Positions 32,962-35,470 of a DNA stretch of 57,813 bases are shown here, piece after piece. Position 1 is the stretch's first letter. Each line of letters begins with the position of its first letter. A model generated the notes under the pieces. It made no database searches and was not told the DNA's origin. It saw only the letters and a program-made list of their open reading frames with translations. The DNA comes from Candidatus Rokuibacteriota bacterium (GTDB lineage: Bacteria; Methylomirabilota; Methylomirabilia; Rokubacteriales; CSP1-6). The translations under genes were made by a program, and so were the position numbers. Location: the NCBI GenBank assembly GCA_003220495.1, contig QHSP01000040.1, positions 1-57,813 of the forward strand. The letters are read 5' to 3'.

Positions 32962-33870
32962 TCAGACCTGGCCGTCCCACGACGAGCCGGCGACCTCGGC
33001 CCAGCGGGCGCGGATCCGCGCGAACTCGGCGGCCGAGAGCGCGCCGACCTCGAGCAGCGCCGCGTTCTGCTGCCAGCGCTCCGGCTTCGTGGTCCCGACG
33101 ATCGCGGTGTGCACGCCGGGCACGCGCAAGGTGAAACGCAGCGCCGTGCTCACGGCCGTGTCGGGCGCCGCCTTCAAGAACGGATAGTCGAGCTTCCGGA
33201 GGCGTGACCAGTAGGCCTGGTAGTACGGCTCCGACGGCTTGCGCTCGTAGCTCCAGACGACGTTGGCGAGCGGGCGCTTCGCGATCACGCCCATCTTCCG
33301 GGCGATCGCCAGCGGCACGGTGCGGTCGACCGCGTCCTGGTCCGCGATGCTGACCGACGTCTGGAGCGTGTCGAAGCGCCCGCATTCGACGGCATAGCGC
33401 GCCGCCTCGCCGTCACCGCTGTAGCCGATGTACCGCGCCCAGCCGCGCTCGCGCGCGCGCTCCAGCGCCTCGATGGCCTCGCCGCGGCGCAGCTCGCCGA
33501 GCGAGCAGCTGTGCAGCTGGATCAGATCGACGTGGTCGGTCGCGAGGCGGCGCAGGCTGCGCTCGATGCTGGCCAGGAGTGGCGCGCGCCGCCAGTCGGC
33601 GCTCGACCAGCCGCCGGCGTGCCCGCACTTCGTGAACAGCGCGACGTCCCGGCGTCGGGCTCCGAGCGCCTTGCCGATCAGGCTCTCGCTGTCGTCGTAG
33701 CACTCCGCGGTGTCGATCACGTTCAACCCGGCATCGAGCGCGCTCCCGAGCAGCCGCGCGACCGTGCGGGCGCTCACGCTCTGATACCCGATCTCCGAGC
33801 CGCCGAAGCCGAGCACGCTCGCCACGATGTCGGTGCGGCCGAGCCTACGCTGCTCCATCGCAGACGTCAT
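32962..33870 (-). CDS. Aldo/keto reductase
   Basis: 302 residues. The catalytic tetrad is complete: Asp53 and Tyr58 in VIDTAECYDDSE, Lys81 in LFTKCGH, His120 in LIQLHSC. C-terminal ALRFTLRVPGVHTAIVGTTKPERW is the NADPH-binding region typical of the AKR family of bacterial oxidoreductases. It probably reduces aldehydes or ketones with NADPH. It diverges from the selenoprotein gene with about 75 bases between. A start two residues later (MEQRRLG) would also be plausible. Confidence 0.93.
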   Translation of the reverse strand: MTSAMEQRRLGRTDIVASVLGFGGSEIGYQSVSARTVARLLGSALDAGLNVIDTAECYDDSESLIGKALGARRRDVALFTKCGHAGGWSSADWRRAPLLASIERSLRRLATDHVDLIQLHSCSLGELRRGEAIEALERARERGWARYIGYSGDGEAARYAVECGRFDTLQTSVSIADQDAVDRTVPLAIARKMGVIAKRPLANVVWSYERKPSEPYYQAYWSRLRKLDYPFLKAAPDTAVSTALRFTLRVPGVHTAIVGTTKPERWQQNAALLEVGALSAAEFARIRARWAEVAGSSWDGQV

Positions 33871-33945
33871 GGACCGTCACGGTACCATGGCGCTGTGGCG
33901 AGGGTGACGCGCTGAGACAACCGCAGACGAGTGAGGAGGATGCCC

Positions 33946-34473
33946 ATGACGACAATCAGCGAAGTCGAACGTCCGGGGCTGGCGGTCCGCGCCTTCTATC
34001 GGATCGGGCGGGCGCTGTACGGCCGGGTGCCGACGCCGGAGCGGCTCATGGCCCACCGTGTGCCGCTCATGATGGGGCTCGGCGGCCTCTACGTCGCGCT
34101 CGAATGGTTCGGTCGGATCGAGTCGACGCTTCGCGCGCTCCTCAACGTGCAGGTCGCGGCGCTGTACGGCAGCGCCTATTGAATGGACATCCGCCGCGCC
34201 GTCGGCGCGAAGGCGGGGATCCCGAGCGAGAAGCTCGACGATCTGCTGCGCTACCGAGAGAGCGATCGATTCACGGCGCGAGAGCACGCCGCGCTCGAGT
34301 ACGCCGAACGCATCACGCGCGACGAGCTCGAGGTGACCGACGCCTGCATGGCCCGGGTCCGGGAGCACTTCTCGGAGGCCGAGGTCATCGAGCTGACCTT
34401 CATCGTGGGCTTTCAGACCTTCGCCAGCAAGTTCGCGAAGGCGCTCAACCTCGCCCCGCAGGGATTCGCGTAG
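33946..34473 (+). CDS. Probable selenoprotein, AhpD/carboxymuconolactone decarboxylase-like, in-frame TGA read as Sec79
   Basis: The frame has TGA at 34180-34182 followed directly by ATG in the same frame, with the rest of the domain intact: 175 residues in all. Start ATG 33946 follows GAGGAGG by six bases. The segment before the TGA, LRALLNVQVAALYGSAY, and after it, MDIRRAVGAKAG ... FTAREHAALEYAERITRD, match the AhpD/CMD core where the family has GCxYC-xDxx. The TGA lies at the second Cys of CxxC, and the first Cys is Ser76, giving S-x-x-U. A hairpin 6-38 bases after the TGA fits bacterial SECIS rules. AhpD-like selenoproteins are known. Alternatives are a nonsense mutation of TGC, or two separate half-genes. 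Likely a thiol/selenol peroxidase or redox enzyme. Confidence 0.75.
34189..34220 (+). promoter_or_regulatory. Candidate bacterial SECIS hairpin
   Basis: Downstream of the in-frame TGA, ATCC-GCC-GCGCC pairs with GGCGC-(GAA)-GGC-(GG)-GGAT around the loop GTC (34201-34203). The loop begins with G, has 18 bases between it and the TGA, and the upper stem is 5-6 G-C pairs. These values fall inside the known bacterial SECIS limits. The region is GC-rich, so a chance hairpin is possible. Confidence 0.6.
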
Positions 34474-34549: not shown

Positions 34550-35470
34550 CTACGGGCGCGGGGTGCAGTACGACGGCGCCCAGCTCACGCTGAGGACGTC
34601 CGGCCCGATCGTGCTGTAGTCGAACGCCTCGGCGTCCTTCCGCATCTGTCGCGTGTCGAACAGCAGCCGCGCCTCCGGGATCCCGCCGAAGAACGCGCGA
34701 AACATCGGCCGCACCATCAGCCGGGCCGCGCGAAGCCCGATCGGCCCCATGAAGTTGCGCCGCTCGCCGACGTGCGAGAGCTCGTCCGTCATGATCGCAC
34801 GCAGGAGCTCGCGGATCCGGTCCCGGACCTCGGGCTCGTCGCCGACGATACCGTCGAGCATCGTGTCGAGCTGGAGGTACACGGTGAGCCCCATCAGCTC
34901 GCTCACGAAGGCCGGCGGCGCCACGACCGGGCCGGGCAAGCGGGCGAACGCGCCGTAGAGCTGCCGGGTCCGCTTCGGCAGCGGCCCCCACTCGACGCCC
35001 TCCAGACCGAAGGTCCGGAACATCTCCTGGAACAGGCGCATGTGACAGAACTCCTCGGCAAGGTGGTACCGGCTGATCTTGTCGATCAGGTACGCCGCGC
35101 GGGCCACCGTCGGCGTCTCGTCCCAGGCCGCCGAGATCCCGATCCACTCGTGACGCGCGAACTTGTAGAGGAAGGTCAGCAGCAGGGTCCGCCGGTCGAG
35201 GCTCCGCGGAGCGTCCCGCATCGTGAGGTAGTTGCGGTGGAACGCGTCGCCGACCGGCCGGCGTGTTCGAACCGGGTTCGCCTGAAAGCGGACGAGACTC
35301 TTCCGCTTCTCCGACAGGTCCTTCGCGTCCTCGAGAATCTCGCCGTCGCGGCGCTGCTGATAGCGCCAATAGCTCTCGAAGTTCTCCTCTCGCTCGCGCG
35401 CCGTGGCGGGAGAGAAGATCGACACGCGGGCGGGTCGATGGACGGATGACGGGCTCGGTCTCACAGACAC
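34550..35470 (-). CDS. Ferritin-like diiron protein, AurF-like
   Basis: 306 residues, GTG start at 35470. Helical protein with two clear metal motifs: RYHLAEEFCHMRLFQEMF (ExxH) and RAIMTDELSHVGERRNF (DExxHxxE), plus an earlier helix Glu in LYKFARHEWIGIS. This pattern matches the AurF p-aminobenzoate N-oxygenase class of non-heme diiron enzymes better than ferritins. Such enzymes oxidise amines or C-H bonds with O2; many homologues lack known substrates. It ends beside the selenoprotein, convergent to it. Later in-frame starts cannot be excluded because the first 20 residues look disordered. Confidence 0.75.
   Translation of the reverse strand: MSVRPSPSSVHRPARVSIFSPATAREREENFESYWRYQQRRDGEILEDAKDLSEKRKSLVRFQANPVRTRRPVGDAFHRNYLTMRDAPRSLDRRTLLLTFLYKFARHEWIGISAAWDETPTVARAAYLIDKISRYHLAEEFCHMRLFQEMFRTFGLEGVEWGPLPKRTRQLYGAFARLPGPVVAPPAFVSELMGLTVYLQLDTMLDGIVGDEPEVRDRIRELLRAIMTDELSHVGERRNFMGPIGLRAARLMVRPMFRAFFGGIPEARLLFDTRQMRKDAEAFDYSTIGPDVLSVSWAPSYCTPRP

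Follow-up and report, generated by a model that had tools for sequence, protein, structure and literature searches.

Selenoproteins of the AhpD/CMD family with a CxxU motif have been known since 2005, when they were reported from the Sargasso Sea (PMC1088965). The AhpD-like selenoprotein (COG2128/TIGR01926) was also recorded in GOS in 2008 (PMC2398784) and is listed as CxxU in reviews of 2022 (PMC9312934) and 2026 (PMC13188914). The protein described here is similar to it in belonging to the CMD/AhpD family, in having Sec at the position of the second Cys, and in having a bacterial SECIS-like element just downstream of the UGA, but the first position of the motif, Cys in the known protein, is Ser, Ala, Thr, or Val in the present clade, which has in addition an invariant Cys134. 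The 2026 review counts distinct Sec motifs as separate subfamilies and includes no AhpD/CMD entry without a Cys before Sec (PMC13188914). The present protein is a real selenoprotein and represents a new subfamily of the already known AhpD/CMD selenoproteins, one that is named by no NCBIfam model. Methylomirabilota is already known as rich in selenoproteins, with 63 selenoprotein genes attributed to one MAG (Deng 2026, as cited in PMC13188914), and the gene may already be among those 63.

Several other described proteins share individual features with this one. The nearest named model, NCBIfam NF053654 ("GroundWater_YciW", YciW-related (seleno)protein), is matched by all 46 aligned members, but the present protein, at 101.7 bits, is far below its cut-off of 310 and is not a member; the CxxU paralogues that were tested, at 146–153 bits, are also non-members. 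PA0269 of Pseudomonas aeruginosa (2o4d/2ijc) has the same fold (rmsd 1.1 Å over 139 columns, 27% identity) and a Tyr beside the reactive residue, but it has a complete Glu-Cys-Tyr-Cys-His relay of which the present protein keeps only the Tyr. TTHA0727 of Thermus (2cwq) is a CMD protein in which Ser replaces the first Cys (PMC3141380), but it is not described as a selenoprotein and its sequence match is weak (E 0.0005). The Sec-containing mercuric transport protein, listed with the motif C/SxxU (PMC13188914), is a precedent for a Ser replacing the Cys that precedes Sec but belongs to another protein family (PF02411).

The gene lies in a stretch of 57.8 kb (the window) that is part of a 6.0-Mb genome of 159 contigs. 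The features of the locus are collected in Table 1. The reading frame contains a single in-frame TGA and is translated around it as GSAY-U-MDIRRAVG; the start is immediately preceded by an RR(T/M)-x-M context that recurs across the genus. Mechanical ORF calling divides the gene into two pieces, 33931–34182 (83 amino acids) and 34183–34473 (96 amino acids). The joined protein matches Pfam CMD (PF02627) with 31.2 bits (cut-off, 23), whereas the first half gives no match and the second only 14.8 bits, below the cut-off. When both strands of the window were scanned for TGA codons with coding-like codon-position GC in frame on both flanks, this TGA was the only one found and, because it is also conserved in 19 of 19 orthologues, its presence is more than a matter of chance. 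The initial annotation, made from the window alone, had proposed an AhpD/CMD selenoprotein with Sec at the second-Cys position of the motif, in a gene that ordinary calling would split, with a GC hairpin of loop GTC 18 nt after the TGA; each of these proposals is borne out by the comparisons described here. Automatic annotation would report the family as two false genes across Methylomirabilota.

Table 1. Features of the selenoprotein locus, in coordinates of the window
Feature	Coordinates	Strand	Remarks
Aldo/keto reductase, divergent neighbour	32962–33870	-	Constant within the genus only
Shine-Dalgarno-like TGAGGAGG	33932–33939	+	Upstream of ATG at 33946; from the sequence
CMD/AhpD-fold selenoprotein gene	33946–34473	+	175 codons with Sec79, TAG stop; TGA kept in 19/19 orthologues; AlphaFold2 model
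Ser76 codon	34171–34173	+	First-Cys position of CxxC/CxxU; S/A/T/V variable within the clade
TGA read as selenocysteine, Sec79	34180–34182	+	Reading frame and conservation in orthologues
SECIS-like hairpin CGCGCC-GUC-GGCGCG	34195–34209	+	Stem 34195–34200/34204–34209; loop 34201–34203
Cys134 codon	34345–34347	+	Invariant in the clade; candidate partner of Sec79

A search of 95 genomes of the phylum identified 19 full-length orthologues, including that of the window, which form one score class: the profile search gave at least 293 bits for the orthologues and 137 bits for the next homologue. These sequences, from independent assemblies and with 58–91% identity, all have TGA at column 79, and neither TAA, TAG, Cys, nor any other sense codon occurs there among the 19. 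The core is free of gaps, with no indels in the 78 codons before and the 96 after the TGA. The genus-level dN/dS is 0.21 on the 5' side of the TGA and 0.28 on the 3' side, the latter in a half where scattered stops without purifying selection would, according to the initial annotation, have spoken against its reading; purifying selection on the two sides is about equal. Nine of the 19 orthologous genes have TGA as their terminal stop, and a global reassignment of TGA to a sense codon was rejected on this ground. The comparative evidence for decoding of UGA79 as selenocysteine is strong. The carriers span several genera and families. Most of the closest named records that contain the gene are soil MAGs of Candidatus Rokuibacteriota; one bears the label Actinobacteria, possibly wrongly, because both its gene and its neighbourhood agree with those of the genus-level group.

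The hairpin begins 12 nt 3' of the TGA. Published rules for bacterial SECIS elements ask for a loop of 3–9 nt, a stem of 4–16 bp, a G in the first two loop positions, a distance of 16–37 nt from the UGA, and a minimum free energy of -7.5 or lower (PMC13188914); with loop GUC, 6 bp, 18 nt, and -9.5 kcal/mol, the present hairpin agrees with all of them. This window is GC-rich, and an equally good hairpin is found at 6.5% of positions chosen at random, so that the evidence for the element lies in its conservation and not in its energy; the single-sequence energy has a z of -0.95 at 40 nt, which is not significant, and of -2.8 at 60 nt. Standard pairs are present in 114 of 114 stem cells in the 19 orthologues, with 18–54% in slid controls. 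The pair 34196–34208 covaries (A-U in 10, G-C in 7, and G-U in 2), so that an Arg/His codon changes in step with an Ala/Val codon, and the covariation rests on this single pair, the remaining five being invariant. Codons 84–88, which hold the hairpin, show less synonymous change than any others in the gene (0.08, compared with a mean of 0.37). In the CxxU paralogues the stem is of unrelated sequence (GCAUCC...GGAUGC), mostly at a spacing of exactly 18 nt. An Rfam search at the hairpin gave no match, and no sigma-70 promoter or terminator pattern was found near the gene.

The genome contains a complete selenocysteine machinery, the absence of which the initial annotation had also counted as contrary evidence. 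The tRNA-Sec gene, selC, is located at 34565–34658 of contig C152 (69.8 bits; cut-off, 47), an assignment with which ARAGORN agrees (anticodon tca), and is clustered on that contig with selA (591 bits) and selB (356 bits). The selD gene is on contig C1 and has an in-frame TGA of its own where selD usually encodes Sec (CAGUASK). The host's own SelA, SelB, SelC, and SelD thus probably decode UGA79. Among the phylum genomes 83 of 95 contain selA, as do 17 of the 19 that carry the gene; it was not detected in two carrier MAGs, G005 and G038, where assembly gaps are possible. The same genome has two further CMD-family places with an in-frame TGA, at 87068–87526 of contig C99 and 6826–6999 of contig C101, the former (L062) encoding a CxxU protein with the sequence NGCPFUIDINAS.

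The residue at column 76, the position of the first Cys, is Ser in 13 orthologues, Ala in three, Thr in two, and Val in one, and is Cys in all 27 homologues sampled outside the clade. The CxxC/CxxU motif by which AhpD peroxidases and AhpD-like CxxU selenoproteins are recognized is therefore absent, and the variation at this column indicates that the clade lost the cysteine of CxxU without adopting Ser. The initial annotation had suggested an S-x-x-U redox centre; this part of it is not supported, and SxxU was rejected as a conserved redox motif. The candidate partner of Sec79 is instead Cys134, which is invariant in the 19 orthologues and in two partial copies (L040 and L113); the paralogues have Leu (25), Val (1), or Ala (1) at this column. 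Tyr78 and Asp81 are also invariant in the clade. A tree recovers the subfamily as monophyletic (support, 100/100; stem branch, 1.07 changes per site). The group, found in Methylomirabilota, has lost the first Cys of CxxC/CxxU and shows that Sec can persist after loss of the neighbouring cysteine. The loss of Cys76 and the gain of Cys134 fall on the same stem branch; because this is a single branch, a link between the two changes is a hypothesis without statistical weight. A CxxU homologue from outside the phylum (L105, genome G231) has both Cys76 and a Cys at the position of Cys134 (DDACFARA).

The AlphaFold2 model (pLDDT 94.4) has as its best PDB matches the debrominase Bmp8 and AhpD-like proteins (TM 0.71–0.85), and this match to solved AhpD-like proteins identifies the fold as AhpD-like. 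Sec79 in the model is close to the start of the active-site helix, residues 77–89, and Cys134 is close to the start of the helix comprising residues 132–141. The proton relay of AhpD and PA0269 consists of Glu, Cys, His/Tyr, Cys, and His (PMC3141380). The corresponding residues in the clade are Ala64, Ser/Ala/Thr/Val76, Tyr78, Sec79, and Arg83, with a single exception at the Ala column and another at the Arg column; Tyr alone is retained. Most of the relay residues are gone, which makes an AhpD-type peroxidase doubtful; peroxidase activity as such is plausible, but the lost relay counts against the classical AhpD mechanism.

The explanation that we favour, with a probability of roughly 0.8 for the whole, is that the clade is a subfamily of the AhpD/CMD fold that decodes Sec and lacks the first Cys, in which Sec79 would provide selenolate chemistry and Cys134 or an external thiol would resolve the intermediate. 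The product would be an all-helical protein of 175 residues, probably cytoplasmic, in which UGA79 is read as Sec under the direction of the hairpin 18 nt downstream; from the fold, the Sec residue, and its conservation, we infer a role as a single-selenol oxidoreductase. The selenolate of Sec79, located near the N terminus of the active-site helix and beside Tyr78 and Asp81, would most likely attack an oxidised or electrophilic substrate, for example a peroxide. Resolution of the resulting selenenic acid or mixed selenide would then fall to Cys134, of the same or of another subunit, or to an external thiol.

Cys134 may be a relocated resolving cysteine. The more specific proposal, in which the resolving function moved from CxxU to a distant helix and Sec79 and Cys134 form a selenenylsulfide within or between subunits, is a tentative one to which we give less than even odds; if true, this pair would give the AhpD/CMD proteins a new layout of the active site. 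We give a comparable chance, again short of even, to a one-selenol enzyme in which Sec acts alone and is reduced directly by external thiols, Cys134 being structural or otherwise used. Such an enzyme is consistent with a clade that has no Cys at all at the CxxU position and with a neighbourhood that differs from genus to genus and supplies no constant protein partner, but a Cys near a helix N terminus with a purely structural role would not usually be invariant, as Cys134 is in all 19 orthologues and both partial copies. The clade is a concrete test case for how Sec without a neighbouring Cys is resolved.

A reductase that handles electrophiles or halides in the manner of Bmp8, and not a peroxidase, was also considered. 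Bmp8 is the top fold match in the PDB (6ohj, TM 0.84) with a profile match of 85 bits, and the loss of the AhpD proton relay points in the same direction; however, the identity to Bmp8 is just 17%, several AhpD-like proteins match equally well, and nothing in the genomic data pointed to halogenated compounds. We consider a Bmp8-like function unlikely.

Decoding of UGA79 as Sec was weighed against two readings in which the TGA is a true stop. An ATG directly follows the TGA in the window, and ORF callers report two ORFs, as would be expected for two translationally coupled genes with termination at the TGA and restart at the adjoining ATG. Directly after the TGA, 17 of the 19 orthologues have ATG, but L025 has ATC and L034 has ACG; a restart gene therefore does not explain the arrangement. 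Moreover, the junction would fall inside the active-site helix of one domain, only the joined protein reaches the CMD cut-off, the stop is never TAA or TAG, and homologues with Cys at column 79 are single genes. With the restart codon not conserved and the junction within a helix, this very improbable arrangement was rejected. A pseudogene or sequencing error, in which a former SxxC protein would have acquired a nonsense mutation, is scarcely credible, although one in-frame stop is the usual sign of it. It was rejected on selection and conservation: the stop is identical in 19 genomes, which belong to several genera and families, the dN/dS is about 0.2–0.3 without indels on either side of it, the hairpin is conserved with covariation, and the genome has the full Sec machinery.

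No operon is conserved beyond the genus, and no neighbour is common to all orthologues outside it. A 306-residue ORF on the minus strand of the window (34550–35470) is kept in most of the genus with about 58–89% identity and has no Pfam match at E 1e-5. In L031, L036, and the visible part of L030, the CMD gene is followed on its own strand by a second TGA-split gene, which encodes a TlpA/redoxin-like protein with the motif WTYG-U-INC (UxxC) and a likely signal peptide. This downstream TlpA/redoxin-type gene fits a redox theme and fixes no partner. A START/SRPBCC-like ORF lies between the two genes in L030 and L031 and is also found 3' of the CMD gene in L034. A gene recognized by eye as similar to methionine sulfoxide reductases of the MsrP/YedY type is situated 10 nt downstream in L026 and further downstream in L028.
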